Assembly: GCA_963575745.1 (NCBI GenBank)
Contig: CAUYUJ010014326.1
Span: 282,001 to 346,000 of the forward strand
DNA: 64,000 nt
Direction of reading: 5' to 3'
From: Prorocentrum cordatum
Lineage: Eukaryota > Sar > Dinophyceae > Prorocentrales > Prorocentraceae
Shown piece after piece: positions 22,207-50,676 of the stretch. The notes beneath the pieces were generated by a model. It was given only the letters and a program-made list of their open reading frames with translations. It made no database searches and had not been told where the DNA came from. Within the stretch, counting starts at the first letter, position 1, and every line of letters starts with the position of its first letter. Position numbers and translations under genes: made by a program.

Positions 22207-22219
22207 GGGCATCTTGGCG

Positions 22220-25973: not shown

Positions 25974-25981
25974 TCTATAGC
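25974..25981. repeat. Target site duplication, left (TCTATAGC)
   Basis: Eight bases identical to 46968-46975 and directly outside the left terminal inverted repeat. Eight-base duplications are typical of hAT-like and some other cut-and-paste superfamilies. Confidence 0.93.
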
Positions 25982-26011
25982 CTGAGTGGCCCTGATGCCC
26001 CCTACAAGCTG
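25982..26011 (+). repeat. Terminal inverted repeat, left (30 bp)
   Basis: Begins CTGAGTGGCCCTGATGCC and ends CTACAAGCTG. It is the exact reverse complement of 46938-46967; the two ends diverge immediately after the 30th base. Confidence 0.93.
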
Positions 26012-26180
26012 CCCCAACTACTAATTCAAATAATTCGAGAATCTGCGAATTCAACTAATTCGACTAATTCAGCTAATTCGATAAAACCGAAAACTTCCGC
26101 CATAACTAATTCAACTAATTCAACTCATTCAACTAATTCGAGTAGTTCAATTATACTGTGTACCTCAACGAATTCGACAC
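26012..26180. repeat. Subterminal AATTCAACTAATTC repeats, left end
   Basis: Irregular AATTC-AACT/GACT/GATA units just inside the left inverted repeat. The reverse-complement form (TTGAATTAG) lies just inside the right end at 46750-46937. Subterminal repeats of this kind often bind transposase; that role is inference. Confidence 0.85.
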
Positions 26181-27094
26181 ATCTCGCGCGTGATTATTGG
26201 GGCCATTCAGTGCTCAGCGCAAAAACATTACATATACAATATACACTACACTCACAAGCCACATGTTCTGACGAACTTGAACAATCACTACGCGTGCCGC
26301 GGATACTGCGATCACGCATGCGGACCGAGGATCACCATCGCCCCCAGGCGCCGAAAGAAATCGGCCAAACATACCAGGCGCCTCCGGAGATACACCAACA
26401 ATGTTGCCATATAAAGAATCTTGAAATGAGTTCGACGCAAGATGGCCACGTAGCCTCCTCCTCCTCGTCCTCCTCTACCTCCTTCCCCTCGGCATCGTCG
26501 CCATTACCCTGCCCTCCCATTCCTCCTCCTCCTCCTCCTCCTCCTCCTCCTGCTCCTCCTCCTCCTCATCGTCATGATCATCGCGACCTTCTCCGCCTCC
26601 ATCCTGGGATCCCCCATCGCCCTTCGGGCCCTCTTCCTTCTGACCTCCCCGATCCCCCACCACCTCTTCATCTTCATCCTCCCCCTACTCCAGCATCGAG
26701 ATCCTCATCCTCATACTGACGCATACTCCTCCACTTCCCCATCCTCCTCTGGCTGCTGCCCCCTCCTCCTCCTCCTCCTCCTCCTCCTCCTCCTCCTCCT
26801 CTTCCTCCTCTTCCTCCTCCTCCTCCTCCTCCTCCTCCTCCTACTCCTCCGCCCTCCCTGCCGTCGAGCCTTCGAGCTATCGTGCTATGCACTATGCGGC
26901 TATGCAAGGTCCGATGTCACAATTTCCCAGAGCCGGGCGCGCGAAGAACGCAGTGAATTTCCCCGGCGACGGCATCGCCGCTTCAATTCGTCACGCAAAT
27001 CGAACTACTCAAACTTCAAACTACGGCGCCGAAAGCTTCGCAAGCTTCGAACGCTTCATAAGCCACGTGTTCACTGGGTGATACTTGCACAGCT
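26181..27094. other. Low-complexity CCT-rich stretch near the transposon left end
   Basis: Runs of CCTCCTCCT at 26455-26565 and 26759-26850 alternate with ordinary sequence (26190-26440, 26870-27090). Pro/Ser or Gly/Glu frames are open across the runs as a consequence of the repeat. No gene could be supported; it may be the 3' untranslated region or introns of the basic exon to its right. Confidence 0.5.
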
Positions 27095-27541
27095 TCAAGC
27101 GGGCCGACGCTCGCGGGCAACGGGCTCGCGCCCACGACCCGGGAGCCCCGGGGGCCCTGTCGGCCAACCTCGGCCGATAGCCGCAAGCCCCAGGTCGAGG
27201 TTTGAGTCCGTCACGCGCGAGCGTCGGCCCCGACGCCAAATGGGCTTCCTAACGGGCTCCTGCTTGGGAGGGCTCTCAGGTTCGCACCAGAAAAGGTCGA
27301 CGCGCTTGTCCTGCGTCTTCGTGGAGCGTGACGGGCCAGCCTCGTCGTCAGAGTCATGGACGACAATTGTGTTCTTCTCGCGTGCTCTCTGCTTTTTCAT
27401 CGCATCCTCCCGAAGGCGCTGGGCTCGACGTTTCCTCCTCTCCTCTATCTCCTCGGGCGTGTCGTCATACACGCTCGAACTGTAAAACAGATCGCCACCC
27501 TTGGTCAGAGGGCCATGGGCACGGGCCCGGACCGCGACCAT
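27095..27541 (-). CDS. Basic/charged exon, unrecognised, transposon cargo
   Basis: 148 codons. The central part is a charged helix (TPEEIEERRKRRAQRLREDA, MKKQRAREKNTIVV), then HDSDDEAGPSRSTKTQDKRV, a phosphorylatable acidic patch, then basic (PKQEPVRKPIWRRGRRSR). The composition suggests a nuclear protein that binds nucleic acid or a partner through the helix. The first residues may be intron. It lies 3' of the 1,214-aa gene on the same strand. A spliced partner exon was not found. Confidence 0.5.
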   Translation of the reverse strand: MVAVRARAHGPLTKGGDLFYSSSVYDDTPEEIEERRKRRAQRLREDAMKKQRAREKNTIVVHDSDDEAGPSRSTKTQDKRVDLFWCEPESPPKQEPVRKPIWRRGRRSRVTDSNLDLGLAAIGRGWPTGPPGLPGRGREPVARERRPA

Positions 27542-27559
27542 GTCTACCCCAGGCCGCTC

Positions 27560-28595
27560 GGCCGGTCAGGCCCAGAAACGAGACCTGAAATGGCTGGGAA
27601 AGTGGGCTCTCCCCTCCCCCCCCTGCCCCCCATATCCCATCCCTCCATCGCATCCCTCCCCTCCCTCCCCTCCTTTGCTCCGCCCGCCCCACCCCTCTCC
27701 CCGTTCCTTATCGCACGCGGCATGCGGCATGCATGCGGCTATGCGGCATGCCGCCTGCCGCGCGCACCTGCACCCGCGAACAACGCGCCGCCTGGGCGCG
27801 CGAGCCCGCTCGCGGCTCAAAATCCGACCGCCCGAGCTCGATCCGCAAAGCGATGGCGACGAAACTGGCGAGGCCATGCCCTGGGTTTGCGATCTAACGT
27901 CCAACGCCTGGCCCAGCCCGGGCACGCCCCAGGAAACTCCGACCACCCGTGGAGGACGAGGAGAGGGCGACGACGAGGATCGAGGACGACGACGAGGAGG
28001 AGATGACGATGACGATGACGACGACGAGGACGAGGACGAAGAGTAACGACGAGGACGACGACGAGGACGACGAGGAGGAGACGACGACGATGACGACGAC
28101 GACGACGACGACGACGAGGACAACGACGACAACGAGGATCGCGGAGGAGGAGGACGACGACGACCAAGATCGAGGAAGGATCGGTGCCGGCGACGATCCT
28201 GGGCCCAAACTCGGCCTGGCCAGGATCAGGACAGTGGTAGAGGGAAGGAAAAGGAAGGGTAAAGGAAAGGTAATAAGGAAGGGTAAAGGAAAGGTAAAGG
28301 AAGGGTAGAGGGCGTCGACGCCCTCCGCAGCGGCAAAGGCAAAGGAAGGGGCAAAGGAAAGGAGAACAACTCATCCGAAAGCCGCCAGCTGCCTAGCTCT
28401 GTCTGCGGGGCCGCGCGCAGCCCCCAAGCGCGCCGATCTGACGCCGCCGCCGCTGAGGCGCAGCAGAGCGGCCGAAGCCCCGTCGCGGGCTCGCCGGGCC
28501 GGGGCCGATCACCCCTCGCAGGCCCAGGCCCATGCCAGCCGCGCCGCCGCGCAGCCGCGCAGCCTCGCCATCCGCGATGGATGGCCATCGCGCCC
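27560..28595. other. Low-complexity spacer: C/T-rich, GAC and AAAGG runs
   Basis: 27600-27720 is pyrimidine-rich, 27950-28160 is a GACGACGAGG run, and 28240-28350 repeats GGAAGGGTAAAGGAAAGGTA. Asp/Glu frames on the plus strand and Ser/Val/Leu frames on the minus strand are products of the repeats. No gene is supported. Confidence 0.55.
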
Positions 28596-29556
28596 TCAGG
28601 CGGCAGGACCACCTCCGAGCGCCTTCTTGCGCATCGTCTCCATGGCCTCCTGCATGTAGTTTGGGGCGATGCACCCCCTGCTCTTCAGCTTGCTCTTCAT
28701 CCCGTCGATGTGAGCTGGGATCTCCGCCACTTCCTTTGGCGCGTCCTTCAGAAGCTTCCTCAAAGCCCACTCCATTCCGATGCACGACTTGCCATGCCTC
28801 CGGCTCTTCTTCACTCTGTCGAGCGCCTCGTCCAGCGCCTTGTTGTTGGCCTGCGCCGGGTCAGTGGTCACGAGGTTGATGGCTGTCCCGAGCTCTGCCA
28901 CCGCATCTGAGAGCTCTGCCTTCTTGGGGTTGTTGAACAGCGTTGCCTGCAGCTCCTGGGACACCAACATCTGGGGATTGTGGAGGGCCGTCGAGGTGAT
29001 GCTGCACTGGGTGACCCTGTCGCCCATGTCCTTGAGGTGGCCGGTGATCTGGTCGGTAGCCTGCTTGACAGCCTTGGCAACGAGGTCGAGGCACATCTCC
29101 GCGAACAACGCGTCGGCCCACCAGCCGTTGTTGATATAAACGAAGCGTTCCCTGTGGGCCTTAATCCAATGACCCAGGCTGGACTGCATCATCACCAACT
29201 CCTTAACCATGCCGATGTGCTCCTTGGTCATCGCGATGCTGCTCAGGAGCTCGACGTTGACCATGCGCTGGGTCACGGCTAGCACCCGCTCCACCATGTC
29301 GACGCGAATCTGCGGGATGTCACCAACCGCCGCGCTCTTCAGCTTCTCGACGTGGACCGACCAAGACCAACCCTGGATCTCCTTGGCCTGCCCCTCTCGA
29401 TCCGAAAGGGCGCTTCCCGAAGACCTCTCCCGCACGTAGTCCTTCGCGACGACCCAGAACTCCGTGAGCGACTCCTCCGCCCCGCCTGCGTGGCCGCTGA
29501 GGATGGTGTCGACCTGCGGCGTGGCGGGGGGACGGGGGGGCTCGTCGTCGCCCTCT

Positions 29557-29591
<35 letters not shown>

Positions 29592-32500
29592 TTCGCCGTC
29601 GTCGTCGTCCTCGCCCTCGTCGTCGTCGTCGCCGTTGTCATCGTCTTCGTCGTCGTGGTCGTCGGGGGGGGGGGAGGGGAGATTTGCCAGGCCGCACCTT
29701 CGGGCGAAGCTCGCTCTCGCACCACTCCCTGAACTGCGCCAAGCGCTGGGTCAGCACGTCTGGGTGCTCGCGCTCCATGCCAGGCGCCGTCATCTCGGTG
29801 TGCCGGTCCAGCAAGATCGCGAGGTCTTTCACGCAGTCCGCCTCGGGGACCTCGTACCCCTCCTGGCCCATGACACCTGGGATCGTCTTCTCGAAACACT
29901 CCAACCACTTCAAACAAAAATCGCACGCGCTCTGAATCGGGACCGGGCCGGCGGGGTCAATCACGCACCGCAGCCTCAGGAAAACCGCTGCCGCCCTTGC
30001 GGGCCCACGGTGTCCTCCCCACACATGCCGACTCCTGATCATCCTCACTATGCCTTTCCCATTCACTCCTCCTCCTCCCCCCCCCCTCATCGAACCGCCC
30101 CGCCGAGCGGCTCCAAATCCTCCAGAGCCACCCGCAAGCAGACAGGCCCGAATCCTCCTCCTCCTCCTCCTCCTCCTCCTCCCCCTCCTCCCTACCCTTC
30201 GATCTTCTCGGACATCCTACCGCGCCTGATCCCCCTACTTCTGCGCCCATTTCAAACTGCCCCTCCTCCTCCTACCCCCCTCCTCCTGCGCCCCCCCTTC
30301 TTCCGAGGCGCACGCGCCCTCCTTCCACCCACCCTCCTCCATCTTCTGAGTCGCGCGTCTCCTCCATCCGCCCTCCCTCCTCCCTCGTCCTCCATCTGAA
30401 GCCCGCGTCTCCTCCCTCCCACCTCCTCCTCCTCCTCCTCCTCCTCCTCCTCCTCCTCCTCTCCTCCTCCTCCCCCCCCTCCTTCTCCTCGCCGTGCCTG
30501 CCCCCTAGTCGCGGCCCCTACTCCCACCGACCCCTTTCCCTGGGGCGGGCGGCCGCGGCCGGAGGCCCCCGCGTCCTTGAAACGAGCGGACCACTTCTCG
30601 CGGACCTGCCCGCAGAGAGTCGCGCCCCACTCGCACTTGGCGGCACCCGAGAGGTTCAACACCACGGCGCCCCACTCGGTGGTCAGGTAGTAGGAGCACG
30701 ACTCGGCCGCGACCGCGAGCGCCTCATCAAAGGACTTCAGGGTGTCGGGAAGCTGGTCTTCGAAGGCGACTCTGGCATCGACAGTGAACTTCGTTTCTCC
30801 GATCCAATCGGCCTCCGACATCAGCGACTGCGGGAAAGCCCTCAAGTCGCCCATCGGGTCGTCCACGTGATGTCCGGCGGCTTCGCGGACGAGTCGCGAC
30901 GCCCCCCTCAACTTCTCGACGAGGTCGACGATCTCGGCGGCCAGCGCCACGTTGTCAACCTGCTGGTCGATTGCATCCTGCGCACCACTGAGGATAGGCT
31001 TTCCCTTGGCCGGGAACATCAGAAGACAAGAAAGCAAATCCTCGCCGTCTGTCTTGCACGCGTCCACCTGGGACCTCAGCTCGTTGACTTTCTCCTCGCG
31101 CGGAGGGCGAGGGTGGCGCGAGTGGCGGAAGGAGGCGGCTGGAGGAGTGGGGCAGCTAGGGAAAGGGTGTAGGGAGGCAGCAGAGGGGGGAGAGGGAGAC
31201 GAGGAGGGTGGCGGGGAGAAGCGGACGGGGGGAGGGAAGAGGGGAAGGGCAGCAACACGCAGCATTGCAGCATCGCATGGCGCATGGCATGGCGGCATGG
31301 CCCAGGAAGGGGTGGAAGAGCGCCCTCGACGAAGATGGCGACGCCCGGCGAAACACTCAAGACGTTCTTGAAAGCCTCGACCTCGATCTTCAGGTCCGGA
31401 GCCAGGGCCTCCTTGGGCAGGTCCGACAGAGAGCTCAGCAGTGCGACCAGGCCATCCTTGCATTCCTCCGACGAGCCGTATTCGGTGAGCTGGTAAACGC
31501 AAGCCTCGTGCACGCACTTCCGCTGCAGCCTGCGCGCGTCGTCGTCGCCAAGGGTGCTCCGCAGCTGCTTCAACGAGGCCATCGGGATGACGGTGCAGAG
31601 GCGCTGGGCATCCGTGCTGACAACCTCGAAGTACTGAGTCCAGATGAGCTCGCACTCCACCTGCAGCGGCAAAGTCTCGTGGGCGAGGTACGTCATCAAG
31701 GATTCCCAAAGTGGCATGAAGGCAGCAGCGCCCTTCGCAGCAGAAGGCTGGCCCTTCCGTATCTTGTTGAGGCGGATGTGCGTGCCGATCACGTCGAGGC
31801 GCCGATTAGCCAATAGGTACTTGTCCTTCTCAGTCTTGTCGATGTTCTCGGCCGCAGCCTTCGAGGTGGCGATCTTGCTGTACCTCTCCAAACTCCTCTG
31901 CATGACGTGGTCGTTGCTCCCGAAGTACAGCGAACTCCCATCGGCCAGCTTGATTTTTTCCCCGTGCTCTGATGCCACGTCGTAGCATTCCGATCCCTTC
32001 GGGCCACGTTTGCCAGGGGCCTGGGAGCCCTTGTCATCCTTCGAAGGGGTCGCAGGCTTTTGTTGCGGGGTGCCCCTCCTGCTGGCATGGGCAGCCTGGG
32101 CCCCTGCCCCCTGCCTCCTAGATGACGATGGCTTCTGCGTGGTCTGCTTGTTCGCCCTGGGCGGCTTCTTCTGCTTCGGCTGCGGCCTGTCCGATGCCGA
32201 GTCGGAGTCCAAACATACGCCGAACGCCCGCCTCCTTCTTGCTGGCCCCGGGGCGGACGACGCGGCGTCGTCGTCGGCGTCGTGAGCGGCACCAGCAGCA
32301 CCGGGTGACGCACCATCGCCATCGCCGCCCTTGCCGTTGTCGCGATTCTTGGTCGGCGTCTCTCTCGCCTTGTTGTTCGCCAGCATCAACAAGCAGTCAT
32401 GTATCATGCCGCTCGCGGCAGAATGGAAACCCTCGGCCATGTCAGCGGCGATGTCCTCGAACTGCTGCTCAACGGCATCGGGGTCGGCGCCGCTCTCACT

Positions 32501-33187
32501 GCCGCCGTCGTGCAACACGTCCTCCTTGTCAAGGGAATCGGCTATGATGCGCGTTGCCATCATCGGCTGCTCCTCTTCCGCATCAGGGGCGAGTACTCCA
32601 CGCACTCCATTGAAAACGCTGACTTTATGGCCTCGCTTCTTATTTTCATGTGCGTTCGGGTCGCCGAACCTCTTGGCATAAAGCTTGTCGGGGTAGAACG
32701 GCACGGGCGCGTCCTTGAGCTCGTACCGCTCGCTCCTCCTCTTGGACACCTTGACCCTCTTGACGCCGTCCCGCTTGCTCTTGATGTACTTCTTGCCCTT
32801 CTTCCTGTCATCGAGAAAATTGGCCCTCCGTTGCTTGAAATCCTCCAATATCTGAATCTTCGTCCTCGCCTGCGTCCTGAAGTCTTCTACTCCATTGTAC
32901 TTGTGGCAAATCGTGCACCACACGCGCTCGCAATACCAGCACCTCGATCCCGACAGGTCGGCGTAGGCCCACCGCATCAGGATATCCTCGTTCTCCTCGT
33001 CTGTGTCACCCTGGCATTTGCCGCAGAGCATGTTGCACGGCTTCGTCGGCCGTTCCTCTCTGGTGGGTTTCTGCTGCCTCTGCGTCTTCTCAAAGAGGTT
33101 GGCGCGCCTGGCCTGGGAGTGGAAGTCCGCGGCCTCAGATTTTGCCTTCCTGCTCCTCTTGGCGGGAGATCGCGAGTCGCCGGCCAT
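28596..33187 (-). CDS. 1,214-aa protein with N-terminal Cys cluster, four exons, transposon cargo
   Basis: Proposed exons 33187-31322, 31094-30532, 29995-29698 and 29513-28596 join in phase and total 3,645 bases. Intron 1 appears to use GC-AG (GGC|GCTCTT ... CGCGAG|GAG), intron 2 GT-AG (less certain) and intron 3 GT-AG (AAG|GTGCGG ... CGCAG|GTC). The ATG at 33187 follows a CCGCAGG that could be a trans-splice acceptor. C51, C55, C58, C83, C86, C91, C94 and H95 form a zinc-binding cluster. Then come a basic segment (QRRANFLDDRKKGKKYIKS), an acidic and Ser/Pro-rich middle with RRRR, and a long helical C-terminal half (LQVECELIWTQYFEVVSTDA; VYINNGWWADALFAEMCLDL). No family recognised. The intact frame beside the methyltransferase suggests a role in the element's life cycle, for example DNA or chromatin binding. 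Confidence 0.65.
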
Positions 33188-33229
33188 CCTGCGGGCCAGA
33201 TGCGCAAATATGTTTTCGGGCGGAACTTT

Positions 33230-34119: not shown

Positions 34120-34395
34120 GCTGATGAGCTGATTGGGAAGCTCCCAGAGCTGATGAGCTGATGAGCTGATGAGTTTAATGTCTTGGACCCCCAGACGTCG
34201 CCGAGTCAACTCCCCATGTGGCCCACGCAGCAGGCCCATGCAATAATCTACCGAAACGCCCGTGGCACGGTGCTCTGGGGCCTTGCAGCTCGACGCGCAC
34301 ATGCCGCATATGCCTCGCCCTCAGTCGCTGAAACCGACATCGCATTCTTCTGGCTCAAAACTATCCTCGCCCTCAGTCGCTGAAACCGACTATCG
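34120..34395. repeat. AGCTGATG repeat and 54-bp tandem at the 3' end of the methyltransferase
   Basis: 34120-34172 repeats GAGCTGATGA. Two copies of CTCGCCCTCAGTCGCTGAAACCGAC start near 34315 and 34369, 54 bp apart, inside or next to the last codons of the methyltransferase frame, so its C-terminal tail is partly repeat-encoded (FQRLRARIVLSQ and repeated SVSATEGE). Confidence 0.7.
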
Positions 34396-36095
34396 CCCTC
34401 TGTCGCATCCTCCTCCATGTTATGGTCCTCCTCGTCTGTGCCCGTGTCCTCGACGTCGGAGCTGCCGTCCTGCGCAGCCTGCGCAGCACCTGCAGCAGGG
34501 CGCGGGATCGCCTGGTCGTTGAACGCTTTCATCTGGCGCAGGATGACGGCCCAATCGCACGCCACGAAGATCGCGAACAACAAGGACATCACAGTAGCGC
34601 CGTTGAAAGCGTTTCCAGCTAGATCCATCTTCTCGCTGCACGTCAGAGGGGGGTCGCACTCCTGGAGAAACTTGAAGCTGAACCCCTGCAAAGCAAGGGC
34701 CTCGTCGCCAGTCAACAACCTTCGCTGGCGCAATAACCAGATCGTGCTCGTGGACACGAGGCACGGCGTAACCCCGACCCGGACGTTCTGCCAATCAGTA
34801 CTCAAATTGGTGTCCACAGTGAGGTCCTTGCCCACGAGCTCATCAAGGCGTTCATGAGCCATCTGTTCCCAATACCAAATGCTCTGCTTATTCCTCTCTG
34901 TGAGGTGCCTGGTGACATCGAGGAACTCGGGGTCGTACTGCGGCGGCCAATCTAGTTTGGCGGCCTGGTAGGCCGAGAGGTTGTCGACCATGAACGTGTC
35001 CTTTACAACTTTTGCCTTCTTCGTGGCCGGCGCCGACTTCGGCTGGCTGTCAAACTCCATCATCCACGGGCACCCCTTGCCATGCGACTCGAAAAAGGCA
35101 TGCAGCGGCAAAGGCTCCCAGAATTCGAACTGCTCGAGCAGGGCTACAATCTCCGAGATGAAAGACGGGGACACGAATCCTTCTGTCTCTTGGTCGATGG
35201 CAGAATCAGACACTAAGAAACCAACAACCCACCACCTGCCCCTGCTCTGGGGTACGCCGTACTTCTGCGCCTGCAAAACGGACGCGTGGACAACGTAGCC
35301 GAACCTGTTCAATCGGCTGACCACCTCCTGCAAGTTTGTCTTGCCACCAGAGGGGTTGGGGGCGCTCAGGTTCTTGACGTTCTCGATGAAGACGACGCCT
35401 GGCCGGCGTCGCGCCACGCACCCGAAGACACCTCTAGCCGTGCTGCCCGTGCGGCCCGACCCCTGCGCCACGCGCCCTTTCGACCGCGTCGAGCCCCTGT
35501 TCAAGAGGCTGACCGAGTCGCACTCCGCGCCGAAGAACGAGAGCAACACTTGCACGATCACAGCCATCCCACCAGTCAAAACGTTCTTACCGCTGACCGC
35601 ACCGAGATCCCGAATGTCTTCGAGCAAGACGCTGGGGGCAAAATGCCTCATCAAAAACCTTCTTTTGAACTCCACAATTTCTGCCGAAAACTGGTGCGTT
35701 ACCTTGATGTCAGCGCCGAACTCCCGATGAAACATTTCGGCCAACATAGTCAGCACGTAGATGACGATATCAGTGCCGCTGCACCCAGTGCCCACCGAGA
35801 TCTCCCCGCCGACCTGCGCCATCAAGAACTGGAGGTTGGAGTATGCCTTCATGCGCTGCGCGGGCGTCAACTTCTTCAACAACCTCTTGGCTATCTCCGC
35901 GGCAGGACACGACGGGGGCTCCTTTCCGCTCGGGGCAGACCCTGGGCCACGGAACCACCGCGGCCATGGGCCATGGGGCCATGGGCGGGCCGCATGGCCG
36001 CATGGCGTCGTCGCGGGGCCCAAGATGGCCCGCGAGGGCAACGAGCATGTCCCAGGAGACCTCGAGATCCCCAAAAGAACCCCAGAAGGCTCCAA
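34248..36095 (-). CDS. Cytosine-5 DNA methyltransferase, transposon cargo
   Basis: Within this 615-codon frame the C5-methyltransferase motifs occur in order: VGTGCSGTD (motif I-like, residue 101), FFGAECDSVS (motif IV; catalytic Cys about 192, with Glu where Pro or Ser is usual before it), VVFIENVKNL (motif VI, ENV 238-240), KYGVPQSRGRWWVVGF (motif VIII, 278-293), LTGDEALALQGF (IX, 461) and DLAGNAFNG (X, 491). It would transfer a methyl group from S-adenosylmethionine to cytosine C5 in DNA. Residues 1-60 are probably untranslated or intron; the real exon likely begins near PAAEIAKRLLKKLTPAQR (about 35920), so an upstream exon is possible. The tail is acidic (GTDEEDHNMEED). No plant-homeodomain, BAH or RING domain is visible. 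It shares strand and intactness with the candidate transposase and lies inside the 21-kb element. Confidence 0.85.
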   Translation of the reverse strand: MEPSGVLLGISRSPGTCSLPSRAILGPATTPCGHAARPWPHGPWPRWFRGPGSAPSGKEPPSCPAAEIAKRLLKKLTPAQRMKAYSNLQFLMAQVGGEISVGTGCSGTDIVIYVLTMLAEMFHREFGADIKVTHQFSAEIVEFKRRFLMRHFAPSVLLEDIRDLGAVSGKNVLTGGMAVIVQVLLSFFGAECDSVSLLNRGSTRSKGRVAQGSGRTGSTARGVFGCVARRRPGVVFIENVKNLSAPNPSGGKTNLQEVVSRLNRFGYVVHASVLQAQKYGVPQSRGRWWVVGFLVSDSAIDQETEGFVSPSFISEIVALLEQFEFWEPLPLHAFFESHGKGCPWMMEFDSQPKSAPATKKAKVVKDTFMVDNLSAYQAAKLDWPPQYDPEFLDVTRHLTERNKQSIWYWEQMAHERLDELVGKDLTVDTNLSTDWQNVRVGVTPCLVSTSTIWLLRQRRLLTGDEALALQGFSFKFLQECDPPLTCSEKMDLAGNAFNGATVMSLLFAIFVACDWAVILRQMKAFNDQAIPRPAAGAAQAAQDGSSDVEDTGTDEEDHNMEEDATEGDSRFQRLRARIVLSQKNAMSVSATEGEAYAACARRAARPQSTVPRAFR

Positions 36096-36329
36096 GGAAG
36101 CTCAGGGGGGGGTCAAGAAGGGCCCGAGAAAACCGCTAGATTGGGGCCATGATGGGGGGCCCACGAGGTGCCTCCTGCCTGTCCCCCAGGACCCCTTGTG
36201 GGCATTCACACAGAGGCCCCTTCGGAGCAATCTCATGGGCTCCGAGATCCCCCTGAGAAGGCCTCGGAGGACCGCGAGCGAGCCCAAGGCAGCTCCAAGA
36301 AGGCTCCACCATGGCTCTCAGGCACGAAC

Positions 36330-36550
36330 AATTAGTTGAATAAATTGTTTGAATTAGTTGAATTAGTTGTATTGAATTATTTGAATTACTTGTAAAGTTG
36401 CCGGCCGGGGTGCCAAAGTTGCCGGGCAAGCGAATTCCCTGATGCATCATGCAAAACGCTACTATTTCAAAGTTGCCGGGGCGCCCGAAAGTTGCCGGGG
36501 CAACTAATACAACTAATTCACGACAACTAATACAACTAATTCAAAACAAC
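36330..36550. repeat. Inverted AATTAGTTG arrays around AAAGTTGCCGG repeats
   Basis: 36333-36392 is TTGAATTAG-type sequence and 36500-36545 is the inverse ACTAATTC type. Between them four AAAGTTGCCGG copies start near 36397, 36414, 36469 and 36490. The AT-rich arms resemble the transposon's subterminal repeats. It could be a nested foldback element or displaced end sequence. Confidence 0.75.
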
Positions 36551-36599
36551 GAACACCATTATTTGGCGACTTCAGCTATTTATGCAAGTTGGCTCTGGA

Positions 36600-37100
36600 C
36601 TCTAGGGCAGAGGTGAAGCACAGGCGGGGCTTCAAGAGGCCCCAGGAGGCACCGAGAGGGCCGCGAGAGGACCCCAAGAGGCCCCAGGAGAAACCCCATA
36701 AGGTCCCCAGAGAAAGAGATCTCCCAGAGGGCCCCAAGACGGCTCCAAGGGCGTCCCCGAAGGCCCCATGAAGGCGCGACCTCAAACGGCTCGCGCCGCG
36801 ACGGGCCCCGGGTTCGTCACAGCGCGCGGGGCTCCAGAGAGGGCCCCAGACGGCTCCAAGAGCGCCCCAAGACGACCCCAAGAGGCCCCCGAGACTAGGA
36901 AGCGCCCCAGAGGGCCCAAAGACGGCCCCAAGAGGCCCCCAAGAGGGCCCGAAAGCAAAGAGCCCTCTTGGAGCCGTCTCGGGGCCCTCCACGGCCACTC
37001 CGAGGGCCCTCGGACGGGCCTCAGAGGGCCCGAGATGTCTCTGAGACAACCTCAAGGAGGCCTGGAGGTTTTCGCGAGGATGTCCCGAGCGAAACCGCCG
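36600..37100. repeat. CCAAGAGGCCCC short repeats
   Basis: Irregular 11-14-bp units GGCCCCAAGAGGCCCC/CAGAGGGCCC. It is like the repeat at 19184-20030 outside the transposon, so this short-unit family occurs both inside and outside the element. No gene. Confidence 0.8.
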
Positions 37101-37157
37101 ACTCCGACCAAGTATGGTCGAGGTGCAGCGGGGCCCCTATCTCCTATCTCGCCTATC

Positions 37158-37352
37158 GCGGGGGCCCGTCCCGACCACGTTTGGTCGGGGCGGGCCCCCG
37201 CGCGCGCCGATGGATTTTGGGCCAATTCCAGCATCGCCAACCTAGAGCAGCTTAGGAAAGGGGAATCCAAGCTGACGCGCATGCAATATTGCGCCAGCTT
37301 GTATTCCCCTTTCCTAAGCTGCTCTAGGTTGGTGATGCTGGAATTGGCCCAA
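37158..37352. repeat. Two consecutive hairpins, the second with 58-bp arms
   Basis: Hairpin 1: arms 37158-37177 and 37182-37201 match at 19 of 20 positions around CGTT. Hairpin 2: arms 37217-37274 and 37295-37352 (TTGGGCCAATTCCAGCATC at the outer end) match at 56 of 58 positions around a 20-base loop, ACGCGCATGCAATATTGCGC, which is itself nearly symmetrical. The near-perfect arms imply selection for folding or recent origin as a foldback element. It lies between the acidic ORF and the methyltransferase. Confidence 0.9.
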
Positions 37353-37429
37353 CATCCCTCGAAGGATTTTGGGCCACATCCGGCTGTGTGTTTCGTGCTT
37401 CCGCTACTCAAGCGCCAGCAGACGAATCT

Positions 37430-37640
37430 ATATAGATATATACACATAGATATGCCTATGCAGGCTATGCATGCAGCATGCGCTGTGCACGGACTATGCT
37501 ACTATGCTGATATGGCTATGCTGTGCTGCTATGATATGATATATGATATGCTGATGCTATGCAGCATTCCTTGCAGCATAGCTATGATATGCAGCTATGC
37601 AGCATGCAGCATGCAGTATGCATCGCATCGTTTGTGGGAG
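37430..37640. repeat. Alternating CTATGC/GCATGCAG low-complexity run
   Basis: Repeats of CTATGCTGATATGG, TATGATATGATATATG and CAGCATGCAGCATGCAG. AT-rich relative to its surroundings. No gene. Confidence 0.75.
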
Positions 37641-37699
37641 TGCCGGCGAGGACGCGGGGCGTGCCAAGACGTTAACTAGGTCAACGATGATATCTAACA

Positions 37700-38639
37700 T
37701 CACGCTCCGACTTTCAACCCTGGCTCCTCTGCTGCATCGCCGCCGACCTGGGCCCGGGGCTGAACATCTCCGTCATTTGCGGGCTGCTCCTCCTGCTGCG
37801 GGTCCTCAGCGGCGGCTGGCTCGTCGTCGGAATCTGGGGAAAAACTCATGCCCTCAAATGGCGCGTCCTGCGCCGCGGGCCCCTCCTCGGGCCGCCCCTC
37901 GGCTGGCTGCGGCTCCTCAGCTGGCTGCAGCTCCTCTGCTGGCTGCGGCACCTCAGCTGGCTGCGGCTTCTCAGCTAGCCGCGGCCCCCCTAGCTGCTCC
38001 GCTGGCCGCGACTCCTCCGCTGGCGCCCCCTCAGCCGGCGCCTCCTCGGCCGGCGCCCCCTCGGCTGGCGTCGCAGCGGCGCTCGCCTCGGACTCGGGCC
38101 CCTCGGGCGTCGCCTCCCGCGCAGGCGGCGGCAAGCCCGCCGCGGCCGCAGCCGCGGACTCGGGCCCCTCGGCTGGCCGCGGCCCCACAGCTGACTGCAG
38201 CTCCTCAGCTAGCTGCGGCCCCTCAGCTGGCTGCGGCCCTTCAGCTGGCTGCGCCCCCTCTGCTGGCCGCGGCCCCTCCCGCGGCCTCTCAGCTGGCGCC
38301 TCCTTGGCTGGCGGCTCAGCTGGCGCCTCCTCGGCTGGCGCCTCCTCGGCTGAAGTCGCGGCGGGCTTCTCGCTGGGCCCCTCTGGCGCCGCCTGCCGCG
38401 CTGGCGGCGTCGAGCCCGCCGCGGCCGCCAAGGGTGCAACCGCGGCGAGGCCCTCCTGCGCTCGCGAGCCCTGCGGCTCCCGCGGGGCTGGGGCCTCCAA
38501 CGGCGGGCTCGCCTTGGGCGCGGCAGCTGCGTCGTCGTCGTCGTGCTCGTCGTCGTGCTCGTCGTTGTGCTCGGCGTGTTCGTCGTCGTCGTCGTCGTCG
38601 TCGTGCTCGTCGTCGTCGTCGTCGTGCTCGTCGTCGTTT

Positions 38640-38670
<31 letters not shown>

Positions 38671-39073
38671 GCTCGTCGTCGTCGTCGTCGTCGACGTCGT
38701 CGTCGTGCTCGTCGTCGTCGTCGTCGTCTTCGTCGTCGACGTCGTCGCCGTCTTCGTCGTCGTCTTCGTCGTCGTCATCGGCGTCAAGCTGGCCTCGGCG
38801 CCAGTCGCGGCGGACTCGGGCGCCGCGCCCTGCGTTGGCGCCGCGGCTGGCGCAGCGCAAGCTCCCGCCGCCTGGAAGACCAGCTTGCCGCATCCCGTGG
38901 CTGCCCTTTCCAAGTGAGCCTCTTTCCGCGCACGGCGGCTGCTCGCCGGTGGCATCCGAAACTGGAGTGGCAACGATTGCTGGACGAGGGCCTCGAGGGT
39001 CTGCGGGGCGCCGCGGACGCTTGGCCCAAACGGCAGAGACGGAAGGATGGCCCCCCGAGAATTCAACTCCCAA
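37700..39073 (-). CDS. Acidic, Ala/Pro/Glu-rich protein, transposon cargo
   Basis: 457 open codons with an Asp/His run (38520-38790, GTC repeats on the plus strand) and then repeated PAEEAPAE/QPAEGPQPAEG units, closing with SPDSDDEPAAAEDPQQEEQP and a stop at 37700. Near the 5' side a different frame (38209-39066) reads TLEALVQQSLPLQFRMPPAS and RKEAHLERAATGCGKLVFQA, which looks more like protein, so the Asp run may be an intron joining the two frames. The product would be disordered and acidic. It lies between the candidate transposase and the methyltransferase on the same strand. Function unknown. Confidence 0.4.
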
Positions 39074-39079
39074 GAACCC

Positions 39080-39653
39080 CTAGCTCCCCCAACGACCCTT
39101 CCAGCAGCGTGCCGGAGGAAGCCGGAGAAATCCTAGGATTGCCCAGCGAGGACTCCAGAGTTCTAGAATGGCCCTCAACGTCCTCGCGTGGTCTCTGAAG
39201 GACTCTTGATGGGCCGCGGGCCCCTGGGGCCTCAGCGAAACCTCGGTGGGGTGCAGGACGGGCTGCGCATTGCAACGTGCATTGTGTTTTTGTGGCTATA
39301 TGTATATATTGAATGTACTATGTGACATGCACCATGACCATGTATATGTACTACCCACCATGTAACGCGCGTGCCCCTCGACCTAAGTTTAAGACCACCC
39401 CTCGGACGATAAGGTGGTTGTTTATTCGTTTTTGATATTATTTGTTTCCTCCTCGCCTGGGGGCCTCTAGGGGCTCTAAGGGTTCTCCTCGGACGATAAG
39501 GAGGTTTGGGGTTCGGCGAACGGCGTCAGACCGCGTCTAAAACCCGAGGCCAGGCGACCTGCTGGGGGGGCAAGAACGAGGGCGGCAAGAAGCTGGGCTG
39601 GCGCGTTTTGCCACGCCTCCGAAAGCAGTCCTGGAGGCGCACCAGCACAACTG
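39080..39653. other. Intergenic, no supported gene
   Basis: 39080-39260 holds CTCGAGGACTCC-like repeat traces. 39270-39350 is AT-rich (TATATGTATATATTGAATG). The motif CTCGGACGATAAGG occurs twice (near 39402 and 39488), each followed by a GT-rich stretch. It lies just 3' of the candidate transposase stop, so it may include the transcript end. Confidence 0.45.
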
Positions 39654-42600
39654 TCACAGCGACGAGCCAGCACAGACGAGACAATTGCACACATGCGCTG
39701 GCGAGACATCTGGGATCAACGCAAGTGCAGCGTCCAACTCTTCATCAGACATCAAAGGGTGACCACGAGGATTGATTCGGACGTGGTCCGACCTCTCAAA
39801 GTCCGGCCGAAGCTCTGAATTAAATCCGAGGACCAACCGCATCTTGGCGAGCCTCTTGCACGTCGCATCATCAACGTTGTACGCTCCTTTCCCGTAGGGG
39901 GCGTGCTTCTTGCATTGACACCCTTTACCCTCACCGAGGTTCAAGTGTCGGCCGCGCGTTGCCCCCCATCCTACTTGCATTCCATGGGCCATAATGGGGG
40001 CGATCTTAAACCGCCCCCAATCCTCAAAGCGACGCCCCCTGCCTGGCCTATCATCCTCCGGAGCCTCCGGCTCTGGAGCCTCTGGCGGCCCGCCGCCAGG
40101 GGGCGCGGGCGGCGGCCCGGGCGGCCCGCCGCCGGGAGGCGCGGGCGGCGGCCCAGGCGGCCCGCCGCCGGGAGGCGCGGGCGGCGGCCCAGGCGGCCCG
40201 CCGCCGGGAGGCGCGGGCGGCGGCCCAGGCGCAGGCGGCCCGCCGCGGGCGGCGCGGGCGGCGGCCCAGGCGGCCCGCCGCCTGGCGGCTCGGGCGGCCC
40301 GCCTCCTGGCGCCCCAAGCGGCTCGCCGCCGGGCGGCTCCTCGGGCGGGGGGCGGGAGGGGAGGGGGGGGAGAAGGAGGAGGAGGAGGAAGAGGAGGAGG
40401 AGGAGGAGGAGGCGGAAAGGAGGAGAGGAGGAGGAGGAGGAGGAGGAGGAGGAGGAGGGGAGGAGGGAGGCGGGAGACGCGGGCTTCAGACGGAGGATGA
40501 GGGGGCAGAGAACACGGGGGAGGGGAAGGGAGGAGACGCGCGCGTCCAGGGGAGGAGGAAGGAGACGCGCGCCTCAGAAGATGGAAGATAGAGGGGGAGG
40601 GGATAGGGGGATTGGGGAGGAGAAAGAGGACGACGAGTAGGAGGAGGACTACGAGGAGGAGGAGGAGGAGGAAGAGGCGGAGGAGGAGGACAAGGAGAGG
40701 AAGGAGGAATAGGGAAGGAGGAGACGCGGGCCTCACAGGGAGGATGAGGGAGCAAGGAACAGGGAGGAGGAGACGCGCGCCTCAGAAGATGGATGGAGGA
40801 GGAGGGAAAGGGGGGAGGAGGGGAGAGGAGGACTGAGGGGCGGGAGGCCCCCCCCCCACATAGTCCGTGGCCCATAACCCTCCCAGGACACCCAGGGCAG
40901 CCGACCTTATCATCGTTACCCCTATCCTCCAGGTCTCGTTGTCATTGCCAGTATCATCAGCATCACCATCACCATCATCATCATGATCATCAGCATCATC
41001 ATCACTATCGTCATCACCACCATCATCACCCTTACTATCGCCATCGTCATCACCGTCATCGTCATCATCATCACCATCATCATCGTCCTCGTTATCATCC
41101 TCATCGTCATCACCATCATCACTATCATCATCGTCATCGGCATCATCATCGTCACCGGCATCATCGCTATCATCATCGTCATCGTCATCATCATCACCAT
41201 CATCGTCATGGCCCCAGAGGGCCATTGTACTCAAGACGCTCCAAAACAAGCCCCGACCCCGCGCAAATGGCCGATCGGCAATTTGGCAATGCCCCAATCC
41301 TTGCCGCCGCCGCCGTCGCCGCCGCGGTGGTCCGGGGGCTCGTCGCTGTCCTCGTTGGCGTCCGACGACCCGCTCACGTCGCTGGCGCCCATGACCTGAA
41401 TCCGCTTGGCCTCGCGAGGCTGCTTGTAGCGCATGCCGGCAGGCCCGCGTCGCCTCTGCCTCGGCCTCGGATCACCGTCCACTCGGTCGATGTCCTCTGG
41501 GCCTCGTGTCCGCGGCGGTAGCCTGTAGGCGCGCGGCCACACTTCTGCCCAAGCGTGCACCTGCAGCGGGTCGGGGAACACGACCCCGCCGTTCACGGCG
41601 TCGCGGTGCCCCAGCACTCGGATGCGCAACAGCTCGGGGAGAGGTCTGAGCAGCAGCTTAGCCAGCGACCAAACAGTCAAGAAGTGAAACATATCTGGCG
41701 AGCCAGGGGCCTCCGACATGTCGAACGTGTTGCCGATGGAGACGACGCGCACGAAGCTGCGGGTGACTTGGTTGTAAGGCTTGCGCGGCCAACGGCCGCA
41801 ATAATACACTATATCGTCGTTGCCGGGCGGGTCGCAGTTGACGTGCAAAAACCTCCCGACAAGCTCTGCGAGTGTAAACCTTTCCAGAGATGCGGCCAGA
41901 GCAATGACGTCATCGTAGTTCCGATCAACCTTCGCGCACAACCCTGGGTGAGCCTCGCAGCAGGAGAAGCGGCGCGTGATCCTCAGTGCATCTGGAATAA
42001 CACCTCGCTCTTGAACGAAATGCTGTTCCCTGTGCTGCCACCGTACACCTTGCATCCTGTTCGCCACGCCTGTTCCCGACCGCTCGCCATCTAAGAAGAG
42101 ACGCACGTCATGGGGGCTCACTGGAAAGTCTCCATCGCCATACCGCCAGCCACCGTCGCAGCCCTGAGCATCGGCGACGTCGACATCAGAGACATCATCA
42201 TCGAGGTCCTCCTCTTCTGCAGCAGCCTCGCGCCTGCCTCGCGCTAGCTTGCGTGCTGCTTCGTCGAGCCCATGTGCCCTGAGTGCAGCGCACTGGCCAT
42301 CCATGTCGAGGGCCCGCCACTGAGCGCCAAGCTGAAGAATCTTCGCCTTCCGAGCGCCGTCGTCGACGTCTCCAGTCTGGGCGGCAAGCCACGCATTGAA
42401 CTCCAAGTTCCGCCAAGCGGTGTCAGGCCTGTCGCGGACCTTCGCGGCTCGCACAGCCTGGGCGGCCCGAAGGCGGAGCACGACGCCCGGCGCCCCCTCC
42501 CCCCCCCTGCGGGGAGGACGGGGAGGGGGGGCTGGGGGGGCGTGGCCGCCGTCGTCGTCGTCGTCGTCGTTGTCATCGCCGCCGTCGTCGTCGTCGTCGC

Positions 42601-45600
42601 TGTCGCCGTCGCCGCCGCCGCAAGCACGACGGCTTGGAAGGCGCCCGCGCGCCTGCACCGGCAAGCCCGCCTTCGCCAAGTCGCCCAATCTGAGCACAAT
42701 TTTGGCGGGGGTGCCCGCCGCGGCCTGCTGCTGCAGGAGCTGGGCCAACAAGCCGTAGTGGTAGAGCTTCTCCGGAGTGACTTTTTTCTTCCCTTGCGGT
42801 GAGCTCTGCCTGATCTGGTTGAGGAGGCCTTCCATGTGCATATTCGTGGTCTTCAGGTGCCTGGCCAGAGCTGCAATCAGAGAGCGATGAGATGCGCTCT
42901 CCAGATCATCGGCGCTCTGTAGGGTAGCCCGCAGCCACTGGCCCAACTGCTCGTCAAGGCAACACTCAGGCAAATCATAGAACTGTTTGAATATCTCTTT
43001 GCGCTTGCCGTGATCAGCATAATGAGCGGATATCAGACGCCAAGGGAAATCCAGAAATTTCAACTCCAGACGCGCCCACACGCTCGAGCTCAAGCCGAGC
43101 ACGGTGCGCCGAGCTCGGGACACAAAGCCATCCGGAGAGAATAAATGGTGATCCAAAGCTTCAAGCCGACAATCGGGGTCGCCGCTGCGAATGCCAAAGT
43201 ACATGCGAAAAAAATCCCGCTGGCAGGTAGCGATCACGCCGCCCTCGCTGGCCAGTTCCCCCATGCCAGACCCCGCGTCGTCTAAATGCTGGAGTCGATT
43301 GCTAAGAGTATATATTGGCATAGTTGTCAGGGCGGCCATGCAGACCGTCTCGGGGGTCTCGGGGTCATCCATGAAAGCTAGGCTCTGCTTCATCTTCTTG
43401 GAAGCGTAAATGCGCCACGCTGCCACATCGCCACTATCATCAACGTCGTTCTCATCGTCGTCGCCCTCGTCCGGCGCCAGTGCCTTGTGCAAGGTGCGCG
43501 GCAACGCGCGGTGCAAAACAATGCCCAAGCTCTGCGCTGCCAATGCCAAAGGAAAGGTATACCATCGGCTTGTCGAAGGCCTGTGTGAAGCGAGCGGTTC
43601 AAACACGAACTCGGTCAACCACGACACCAGCTTGTCTGCGCAGACCTCGCGCGACCGCACGCCTGCGGCATCAGAACAGCACCCCGGCATCCAACAATAA
43701 TGCTGGAACGCAGGCTGCCGCCAATCCCCGTTAGCGAGCGCGGCAATGATATCGGCGGCAGCCTGCAACTCCTCGATCGACTTCGCCAAGGACTCCCGTT
43801 CGCTGCGGCCGCGACTGCGGCCCCCCCGAAGCAAGGTCACGTTCAGCAAATGGCGAGCGTGATCGGCAAATCCCGCATGCGGTCGGGCGCCAGCAAAAAA
43901 GTTCAGCCTCAGATCCTCCATGATGATTTCTTTCAAAGCTTTGGCAAGATCCCTCAAGATGCTCGTGCGATTGCACGTCCACGCAACTGCATGAAGATTC
44001 AGAATCAACTGCTTCTGCTTGAACGTATTCTCGACCATCCGGTGGATCAAATGCGCCGCGCACGTGACGTCGAGGAGCACTAAAAAGCCGTCCTTGTGAC
44101 CGTCGGAGACGCGCTGCTCGTTGAAGTTGACGACCGCCTCGCCGACGAACAGCTTGAGCCTCACGTTGCTGCTGTGCTGATCGGAAGATAAATTGAGCAG
44201 GATCAGAGGGATGGACAAGACGAGACCCTTCAATGCATCCAGGCGCAGCCCCGGCAGGCGCTCGTCCAACGCCTCCAGGATGTTCGACGCCGAAGTGCGC
44301 TGCAGGAAGACGGGGCCCTGGGGCGTAGCTGGAAAGCACTTCACTGACCGCGCCCCCGACGGCTGAGCTGGCGGCGACCCCCCTCCCCCCCGCCGCCAAC
44401 CCAACCGCGGAGCGTGACCGGTAGGAGTGCTTTCCAGCGCTGGGCCTGGAGTAACTCTTCCCTGCGGAACACCATCAGCTCGGACTGCATCGCGTGCGGC
44501 TCCGCCCAAATCATAGTGCCGCGGTGGCCCATCAAGTCGAGCGTGCCCCTCATCGGCTCCCGCCCCAGGTTGCGCTCCTTATACTCGTCATGCGTTATCC
44601 TGCACCATGTGGTTGCCGAAGACCCTTTTGACAATGTAGTTGGCGAGATGGCCAGCTGCTGCGCCTTGGACTTCCGCTTGACATTTGGATACCAATAGGT
44701 AGCACATGGGGCAACGAGGGGCCGCACATTGCCGAATGTGACTTCCACTGGAGCTTCATCCCAACACCGTTGAACCAACAGCCACTGCGGCTGCGTCGCC
44801 CCGCACTCGAGGGCCATCCTGAAATCCGAGATGTGGCTCGTAAGCGTGAAGTTGTGCGCCATGGATACGCAGGCGACCGCGTCCATCTCCCGGCGCGATA
44901 TCCTCCCCAAATTGCTGAGCTTCGTGTTGACCAGACCGAACGCGTAGGGAATAAGGCCATCCAGCGACCACTGCTTGGGGTGCACCCACTGCGACTGGCG
45001 GCGTTTCAAAGGGTTTGGCCCGACGGCCAGCTTACATCCATGTGACAGCTCCCGACCATTCCATACCTTGGTGACCGCGTCGAGCTTCCTCTGTAAGGTA
45101 CTTGTATCCTGGGTGTGTCGACGCTCCATCTCCAAAAACTTACGTTTCACTGCTTTTCGCTCTCGGCTCCCCAGGCACGCGGCATGCACTAGCTCCGCCA
45201 CCGACGTCGCAGCGTCAACAGCAGCTCCCCCGCTCTTCCGCTTGGCCTCCAAGACCTCCAAAGAATCAAGGCTGCCCTTCTCGAAGCCACCTGGCCCCTC
45301 AGATAGAACGCTGAATGCAGATCTGTTGGACGCACCGCTGCAATGCGATAGCCTATCCAGCTCGTCGAACGAATCTGGATCACCACCAGGACCGAGGCCT
45401 TCATCAAAATCCAAATCATCGAGCCCGAGCTGATCAGAGCCCGAACCGTTCATCATGTCCAATCTCACCGCATCCAAAAAATCAGAATCAATACTCAAGC
45501 TTCGACTTCGAGGTGACACTGGGCCTTCCTCTGGAGGGGCCGGCCCTGGCCCGCCGTCACCGTCGCGTGGGCTCAACCTCGGACTCGACCCCTCTCCTGC

Positions 45601-45678
45601 CTCCGGGGTCGGCCGCCCCTCCGAAGTCGCACCGCCGCCGCTGATCTGGGATAAGGCAAGGCTGTCGTCGTCGCTCAT
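39654..45678 (-). CDS. Candidate transposase, 1,567 aa, three exons
   Basis: Proposed exons 45678-44406, 44328-41300 and 40055-39654 join in phase (4,704 bases). Intron 1 is 77 nt (GCG|GTTGGG ... TTCCAG|CTACG); intron 2 is filled with GAT, GGA and GGC repeats and may use a GA donor, less certain. The ATG at 45678 opens MSDDDSLALSQISGGG, a disordered acidic start. Then come a coiled coil (RKAVKRKFLEMERRHTQDTS), QRCWDEAPVEVTFG, and at the start of exon 2 NLSSDQHSSNVRLKLF followed after about 35 residues by LLDVTCAAHLIHRMVE. A D...SSN strand followed by a C-x2-H-x2-H step resembles the RNase-H-fold core of hAT-like transposases. Later parts include HYCWMPGCC and HVCNCLVC. It is the largest intact gene in a TIR/8-bp-duplication element, which is the main reason to call it the transposase; the family is not proven. 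Confidence 0.6.
40070..41215. repeat. Simple repeats filling an intron of the candidate transposase
   Basis: 40080-40290: about five 36-bp GC-rich units (GCCGCCGGGAGGCGCGGGCG). 40370-40470 and 40650-40720: GGAGGAGGA. 40930-41215: CATCATCGTCATCACC. On the minus strand the third block is GAT-rich, giving Asp frames that are not taken as coding. Position, composition and flanking exon phases all fit an intron. Confidence 0.75.
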
Positions 45679-45689
45679 CCGCGAGTCCC

Positions 45690-46486
45690 CTCATGCCGCA
45701 TGCCTCCTCAATCGGATCGGATGGGCCATCCCCCGGATGGGGCGCGCGGCAAAGACGCCCCCTGAACAGCTCGGGCCCAAAGGGCCCGAGAAGGATGAGG
45801 AGGGGGAGAAGCGGAAGCAGCAACAACAACGAAACATGTAGTTGAAGGAAGAGCCTTAGGACCTAGGACTTAGGAGCAACTCGACTCGATAATGTCAACG
45901 CGCCTGAAGGCCAAATCGCACTGTCTTGATGCACGGCCAACTTTTCAGTCGAATGTGCGCGGCGCTAAGCTACATGTCACATGTCACACGTCGCATAAAC
46001 AGAACGCGACATCCACCCGCGTAAGTTGGAATTCTCATGCCCCAGGACCATTACTAACCATTACATGGACGGCCCCAGGGACCATGGCCCATACGACGCC
46101 TCCGGCGGTGCGACAGGGAGAAGTTGTCTGTCTAAAATAACGGGACGGGGTGGAAGAAGAGGGCGAGAAGGATGACGAGCAAGGGCCCGATGACCGATAA
46201 TAACGAAACGGCAGATCGGATCAGACTCGCGGCGCCCGGGCTGCCCCTGTCTAGCGCTCAGAGGGATGGACGAAAGAAGGGGGGGGGAACCTCTCCCCCC
46301 TCCTCCTGCCCCTCCTCCGCCTCCACCTCATCCGCCTCCTCTCCCACCCCCCTTCCTCCGCCACCCGCTTCCTCGGACTTCAATTCGGGGGCCATCGTAG
46401 AACATACGAAGAAGCCAAAAGAGGACGAGGAAGAGGAAGAGGAGGATGCTGAGGGGAGCGCGTTGCATCTAGAAAAAAAGGAAGAG
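45690..46486. other. 5' flank of the candidate transposase, no supported gene
   Basis: Ordinary-complexity sequence with no coding frame of note. A pyrimidine block (CTCCCCCCTCCTCC) at 46290-46370 and a GAGGAAGAGG block at 46418-46455 occur. This is the most likely place for the element's promoter, but no recognised promoter element exists for dinoflagellates and none is called. Confidence 0.4.
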
Positions 46487-46514
46487 CTGAGTGGCCCTGC
46501 CCTCACACAAGCTG
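46487..46514 (+). repeat. Third, internal copy of the terminal repeat (divergent)
   Basis: CTGAGTGGCCCTGCCCTCAC then ACAAGCTG, in the orientation of the left end, followed by CCCCCAATTATTAATTCAAAT just as the left end is followed by CCCCAACTACTAATTCAAAT. It lies 480 bp inside the right end. The 8 bases before it do not match TCTATAGC, so it is not the edge of a separate insertion with that duplication. Confidence 0.8.
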
Positions 46515-46749
46515 CCCCCAATTATTAATTCAAATGGATAGGAAGAAGAAGGGGATATGAGGATGGGGAGGGATATGAGGATGGGGAGAAAAGGAAGGCG
46601 ACGAGGAGGAATATAAGTCATATCGTATGAGGATTGTTCATTCAGTGTGATTCCTGGAACAATTGTGGGCGCGCTCTCGTCTGTCAGTGACTATGAACTA
46701 TTGACTATTGACTACGATTGACTATTGTGCGTGCACTCTTTCGACACAG

Positions 46750-46937
46750 TTGGATTCGTTGAATTGAGTGTGGGTGCGCTCTTTCGAGTCAGTTGAATTA
46801 GTTGAATTCGCTGGTGTGCCCTATTTCAAATTAGTTGAATTCGTTGAATTAGTTGGGGCGCAGTCTTTTGAATTAGTTGAATTAGTTGAATTGTTTGGGG
46901 TGCACTCTGTGGAATTAGTTGAATTATTTTGGTGGAA
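46750..46937. repeat. Subterminal TTGAATTAG repeats, right end
   Basis: TTGAATTAGTTGAATT units separated by GGGGTGCACTCT/GGTGCGCTCTTTC-type spacers, just inside the right inverted repeat and in inverted orientation to the left-end array. Confidence 0.85.
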
Positions 46938-46967
46938 CAGCTTGTAGGGGGCATCAGGGCCACTCAG
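46938..46967 (-). repeat. Terminal inverted repeat, right (30 bp)
   Basis: Exact reverse complement of 25982-26011. Read on the minus strand its opening CTGAGTGG supplies the TGA (46966-46964) that now ends the interrupted helicase frame. Confidence 0.93.
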
Positions 46968-46975
46968 TCTATAGC
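46968..46975. repeat. Target site duplication, right (TCTATAGC)
   Basis: Identical to 25974-25981 and directly outside the right terminal inverted repeat. Confidence 0.93.
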
Positions 46976-50647: not shown

Positions 50648-50676
50648 GAACACCTTAGCGACCGCGGGCCGATCGA

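Follow-up and report, generated by a model that had tools for sequence, protein, structure and literature searches.

A probable cut-and-paste DNA transposon carrying a DNMT5-like methyltransferase gene in the dinoflagellate Prorocentrum cordatum

The window analysed here, 64,000 nucleotides of the Prorocentrum cordatum genome (assembly GCA_963575745.1, contig CAUYUJ010014326.1, positions 282,001 to 346,000), holds an insert of 20,986 bp (25982-46967 of the window) bounded by terminal inverted repeats (TIRs) of 30 bp and a target site duplication (TSD) of 8 bp. The left TIR, CTGAGTGGCCCTGATGCCCCCTACAAGCTG, lies on the plus strand at 25982-26011 and starts with CTGAG; its inverted counterpart on the minus strand, CTGAGTGGCCCTGATGCCCCCTACAAGCTG at 46938-46967, is perfect (30/30). 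Directly outside them stand two identical copies of an exact duplication, TCTATAGC (25974-25981 and 46968-46975). An earlier note, made from the letters of this stretch, had described the duplication, the inverted ends and the size of the interior, and all of these were re-found. Exact inverted repeats of 12 bp that lie over 500 bp from each other and have identical 8-mers directly outside were sought throughout the window, and this insert was the only place returned; the window contains 0 N bases. The TIR is free of CpG, a feature that we considered and dropped as a sign of methylation avoidance because 8% of 30-mers with a like G+C content are also CpG-free.

The same element occurs elsewhere in the genome, which was searched in one assembly (4,128,499,153 bases in 21,875 contigs). 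A 101-bp probe from the left end gave eight matches on three contigs, corresponding to three full elements including the window copy. The second copy (C12113:782810-805864) measures 23,055 bp and is flanked by GCTATGAC twice, the third (C16533:316909-337602) measures 20,694 bp and is flanked by GCAATGGG twice, so that the 8-bp TSD is exact in all three, while the flanks and the TSD sequences differ from locus to locus. The main blocks of the three copies align end to end at 95.6-98.5% identity, and the TIRs match at 29/30 positions in each of the C12113 and C16533 copies versus 30/30 in the window copy. The element is real and mobile, with three full copies; the claim of a large element of the cut-and-paste type is supported by three independent insertions in the same genome, two of them found by the search for other copies that the earlier note had asked for. 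Read in the sense of the genes, the TSDs are GCTATAGA (window), GCTATGAC (C12113) and GCAATGGG (C16533), and they share four columns; for three 8-mers drawn at random the chance of agreeing in four columns is 0.0013, a statistic chosen after seeing the TSDs. Nested in the C12113 copy, about 15.7 kb from its start, is an extra insert of about 2.08 kb that ends in ATC repeats and apparently has a short TCTCCC duplication.

Relatives of the ends are few. With at most one mismatch, the first 21 bp of the TIR occur at six sites in the genome, which are the six ends of the three copies. Allowing two mismatches gives 17 sites, 11 more, against one for a reversed control pattern. Within 1.5 kb of these 11 sites, at least two nonamers of the kind described below were found in three cases (L043, L044 and L051), one in L042 and none in seven. 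In about 30 kb beside L043, L044 and L051, the proteins of the element were encoded in 0 of 3. One of these three is a closed element of 556 bp (C1209:38755-39310), whose ends are related to those described here and whose duplication, GCCATGC/GCCATTGC, is imperfect. Related end motifs with nonamers nearby were also seen at C12590:228731 and C19655:542831, the latter with just two nonamers about 1 kb off. The exact TIR 21-mer had no match (0) in either IMG/VR or GTDB contigs.

Nonamers of the AACTAATTC type (at most one mismatch) number 27 in the window, and all 27 lie inside the element, where they form three clusters. Ten make up a left subterminal array on the plus strand (26019-26175) and eight a right subterminal array on the minus strand (46795-46929), which is inverted relative to the left one, sits inside a 42-bp tandem repeat and lies about 1.1 kb upstream of the start of the candidate transposase. 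The remaining nine form a middle block (36329-36542), five on the minus strand followed by four on the plus strand, about 0.4 kb upstream of the methyltransferase coding region. Both other copies show the same three clusters, with 54 columns of the middle block missing from C16533. We infer that one DNA-binding product may act on the ends and the promoters alike. Also inside the element, at 37208-37361, is a near-perfect hairpin with 71-bp arms and a 12-nt loop (a 171-nt fold of -130 kcal/mol, z -16.9), which is 98-99% identical between copies and might be a small-RNA precursor or a foldback element. Rfam and tRNA searches gave no matches.

All described genes of the element are on the minus strand. 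The earlier note had proposed several spliced genes; one two-exon gene (45678-44440 / 44317 to about 41395) stands, but the other exon borders are guesses. Exon 1 of this gene (44440-45678) encodes 413 aa, among them WDEAPVEV with the proposed first catalytic Asp (by eye), and exon 2 (about 41395 to 44317) encodes approximately 974 aa with D, CxxH and E in that order (by eye). The whole succession of motifs, WDE, SSDQHSSN, CAAH and NMHMEGLL, also assigned by eye, suggests a transposase with an RNase H fold. A search with the 562-aa core of exon 2 found one homologue among 7,998 scored candidates, the metagenomic protein P0010, which is 55% identical over 93% of the core (2e-191) and retains the second D, the CxxH and the E. 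At an E-value of 0.001, none of 7,995 candidates scored was homologous to the 1115-aa open reading frame (ORF) obtained with the intron left in, and the transposase alignment had no match in viral contigs. The two-exon gene is the best transposase candidate in the element, and its two-exon structure is supported. A Cys-containing ORF at 39657-39974 (minus strand, no Pfam match) might, as a guess, be a last exon of the same gene. The intron (44318-44439, 122 bp, minus strand) has short inverted repeats, AGTGCTTTCCAGC, near its ends and resembles an introner. Introners have been reported for dinoflagellates (PMC10666404; PMC7789003). Short TIR elements, introners included, are described as abundant in this group and, in Amoebophrya, as lacking a general transposase (PMC7789003). 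The ends of the intron do not match those of the element, so that a connection with introners is no more than a lead.

The cargo was absent from the earlier note, which had stressed the size and the spliced genes as unusual; these are less remarkable than a DNMT5-like C5 cytosine DNA methyltransferase encoded at 34251-35897 on the minus strand (start of the coding region approximate), where the frame is open in the window copy. Motifs CSGTD, EC, ENV, QxRxR and GNA can be recognised by eye, and the DNA methyltransferase domain was the sole Pfam match of the ORF above the cut-off (2e-16), with no SNF2 or RING domain, features of DNMT5a/b, above that cut-off. The best solved relative is 7r76 (labelled Rad8 in PDB; 4e-19 for the sequence alone, 5e-33 with its family), which we take to be Cryptococcus DNMT5 and which ranks ahead of bacterial enzymes and DNMT1. 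Judged by sequence comparison, the cargo enzyme is closest to DNMT5 among solved C5 methyltransferases, with CSGT[ED] in motif I. Seven relatives from metagenomes were found at 32-48% identity; the family alignment comprises seven of nine database matches, P0008 and P0009 being excluded as weak and different. In the same genome the methyltransferase search gave at least 76 matches (71 scored of 2,095 candidates), of which four came from the three elements and 72 from elsewhere, pointing to a large family of such enzymes there. The other DNMT5-like loci number approximately 67 or more, at 25-37% identity, mostly with open frames of at least 280 aa and with a stop in five of the matches. Some of them are nearly identical to one another, as in a set of six that have 574-aa frames, and could belong to other mobile elements bearing DNA methyltransferases. 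In viral contigs the methyltransferase alignment gave 19 loci with weak matches, mostly within residues 211-355, which we took for ordinary viral methyltransferases; in GTDB contigs the methyltransferase had two weak bacterial loci.

A putative third gene of about five proposed exons occupies 27278-33187 on the minus strand and has an N-terminus containing CxxC, followed by further segments. It is plausible that this gene is coding; in proposed exons 1, 2 and 4 codon usage scored higher in a plus-strand frame. Its Pfam matches (Stc1 0.15, SIMPL 0.013, Elongin_A 0.027) were weak, below the cut-off, and were not used.

The surroundings of the insert were read in the earlier note as a helicase frame restored by its removal. 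When the element and one TSD copy are removed, the minus strand does read ...ERIDSAI|EKARASMEK... in frame, followed by 32 codons up to a stop. The in-frame joint is real, but it is weak evidence: a second reading frame is likewise open across the restored joint and the DNA is GC-rich, so the restored frame alone proves little, and the helicase match falls short of the joint. That match (AAA_12/IGHMBP2-like) covers residues 147-192 of a 269-aa host ORF and ends before the joint. Weak helicase matches occur in further frames nearby, and an endonuclease-like ORF lies on the same strand. With helicase pieces spread over several frames near an endonuclease-like ORF, the interrupted "helicase gene" is probably decayed retroelement sequence rather than a disrupted host gene. 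The broken chain of minus-strand ORFs on either side of the element (46976-56200 and about 22200-25973), with endonuclease-like (PF03372), reverse-transcriptase-like (by eye) and SF1/UPF1-like helicase pieces, perhaps represents a non-LTR retroelement with a helicase. At the far end of the window (63580-64000) a 90-bp tandem repeat of 4.7 copies (91% matches) reaches the window end.

We interpret the insert as a DNA transposon of the cut-and-paste type, low in copy number and autonomous in appearance, whose transposase is unclassified and which has captured a DNMT5-like gene, a reading to which we assign a probability of roughly 0.8. Under this interpretation, the product of the two-exon gene would be an RNase-H-fold transposase. 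It would bind to the 30-bp ends as well as to the nonamer arrays, excise the element and join it to an 8-bp staggered cut at sites resembling GCNAT. The DNMT5-like enzyme would be a travelling cargo. It would most likely methylate the element's own DNA or promoters (the transposase gene and the methyltransferase gene each have nonamers upstream), and such self-methylation might result in self-limitation or in camouflage within a methylated genome.

The state of the copies bears on how far this interpretation reaches. Over about 20.6 kb, private substitutions assigned by a two-versus-one majority number 152 in the window copy, 142 in C12113 and 275 in C16533. The window copy has no stop in nine exon stretches, which were chosen as its open frames; the C12113 methyltransferase can be read over residues 1-571, and one stretch of the third gene has a length change in both C12113 and C16533. 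Between copies the per-site ratio of nonsynonymous to synonymous differences (pN/pS) is 0.74-0.80 for the transposase and 0.84-0.93 for the third gene. Several results weigh against the transposon as we describe it. Transposase exon 1 is interrupted by stops or frameshifts in C12113 as well as in C16533, and C16533 is further disrupted in transposase exon 2 and in the methyltransferase, which is split over two frames. The pN/pS of the methyltransferase is 2.7-4.6 (2-3 synonymous versus 23-31 nonsynonymous changes); taken together, the pN/pS values indicate mostly decay since insertion, with no purifying selection on the methyltransferase evident since the copies split. CpG changes of the C-to-T type are not in excess (37/138 versus 29.7% expected) and the CpG observed/expected ratio of the element is 0.97, which speaks against methylation-driven mutation. 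The candidate transposase has no match in Pfam (below 0.1), NCBIfam (below 0.1) or PHROG (below 0.02) and no meaningful match in PDB, and its AlphaFold (AF2) model is useless (predicted local distance difference test score, pLDDT, 35). Dinoflagellate spliced-leader relics were looked for and not found. Finally, the joined flanks of the C12113 and C16533 copies are open in several frames and therefore decide nothing.

Could the insert be two elements rather than one? Two related transposons (25982 to about 36391, with the methyltransferase and the third gene, and about 36502 to 46967, with the transposase) may have fused end to end, lost their inner TIRs and since moved as a unit. The middle nonamers can be taken for a right end and, after it, a left end; nine bases of core TIR sequence, CCCTGATGC, were spotted by eye between the two. 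We nonetheless consider such a fusion unlikely, given that no inner TIR was found at up to three mismatches of its first 21 bp, that the middle block has the position expected of a promoter, directly upstream of the methyltransferase coding sequence, and that the arrangement is the same in all three copies. A different doubt concerns the enzyme: the mobile unit may be real, yet another element, or the product of the third gene, may act in trans on its ends in place of the two-exon gene. The missing family match and the assignment of D-CxxH-E by eye leave room for this. We doubt this alternative, since no other open gene of the element is as long as the two-exon gene, whose motifs come in the order found in RNase-H-fold transposases and which has a conserved relative elsewhere.

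A Polinton-like or other integrated virus would share the size of about 20 kb, the TIRs and the methyltransferase. Such an origin seems very improbable: no capsid, DNA polymerase, packaging ATPase or integrase was among the Pfam matches, for which part of the element's ORFs and exon stretches was scanned, and the insert has at least one intron and combines 30-bp TIRs with an 8-bp TSD. Polintons have long TIRs and 6-bp TSDs. The use of a single assembly, without reads, could raise the suspicion of an assembly artefact or of chance repeats. This is scarcely credible, as each of the three loci in the genome has flanks and an exact TSD of its own and the window has 0 N; the differing flanks and TSDs make assembly duplicates unlikely. 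Beyond the cut-and-paste transposon that we favour, the element might found a new superfamily of eukaryotic DNA transposons, giant and intron-containing, with 8-bp insertion biased towards GCNAT and a transposase that belongs to none of the described families; its DNMT5-type enzyme would be a capture that has the element's nonamers at its promoter. We put this forward only tentatively, as the less probable case. If true, one protein could couple transposition to self-methylation, and short relatives with the same end motif (such as the 556-bp element on C1209) would be non-autonomous satellites.

Among known DNA transposons, hAT elements have a D...CxxH...E order around a helical insertion and a C-terminal ERxFS motif, and are usually smaller. 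The 8-bp TSD and the D...CxxH...E order assigned by eye in our element are hAT-like, whereas the ERxFS motif was not seen, the ends start with CTGAG and the element is larger than a usual hAT. No hAT transposase or dimerisation domain was matched by Pfam in the stretches scanned, nor Hermes in PDB. Pfam, which holds KDZ models, also gave no match to KDZ transposase or Cys-cluster domains in these stretches. En/Spm of maize has subterminal repeat arrays that extend into the promoter region, and in this it resembles the element described here; it differs in its 3-bp TSD, its CACTA ends and its lack of a methyltransferase.

Mobile elements that carry DNA-modification enzymes have been described before. 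LINE, DIRS and Gypsy retrotransposons carry DNA methyltransferases (SymbioLINE-Dnmt, SymbioDIRS-Dnmt3 and KnitGypsy-Dnmt3), and DNA transposons encoding such enzymes have been identified in marine viruses according to a remark in the same source (PMC5890265). These retrotransposons are likewise mobile, two of the three come from dinoflagellates, and their C5 methyltransferases have conserved key positions (PMC5890265). Unlike them, our element has TIRs and an 8-bp TSD, and the element stretches scanned with Pfam, part of its ORFs, contained no reverse transcriptase family. Their enzymes belong to Dnmt3 or to an orphan lineage, whereas the present one is DNMT5-like, the orphan lineage lying outside our comparison, and SymbioLINE-Dnmts are reported to be CpG-poor (PMC5890265), in contrast to the ratio of 0.97 given above. 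DNMT5c, described as specific to dinoflagellates, is similar in that it comprises dinoflagellate enzymes of the DNMT5 clade for which no SNF2 helicase is reported, and dissimilar in being known from transcripts and in having an N-terminus of about 1000 aa (PMC9998398); it was compared by description only. Fungal DNA transposons with TET genes include KDZ (Kyakuja, Dileera, Zisupton), hAT7, EnSpm and others; these too are DNA transposons with a DNA-modification cargo, and Zisupton and one Dileera family have 8-bp TSDs (PMC12730594). Their cargo is a dioxygenase (PMC12730594) and ours a methyltransferase, and the transposase here is not recognisable as KDZ or hAT. In the literature searched, which included few subscription papers and did not extend to Repbase, we found no report of a DNA methyltransferase in a dinoflagellate TIR DNA transposon. 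The capture of methyltransferases by retrotransposons (PMC5890265) and of TET dioxygenases by DNA transposons (PMC12730594) has already been described. Our element offers a transposase candidate in a group rich in short TIR elements, introners included, and a dinoflagellate TIR DNA transposon that bears a DNMT5-like enzyme would be the methylating counterpart among cut-and-paste elements, one in which self-marking becomes testable.

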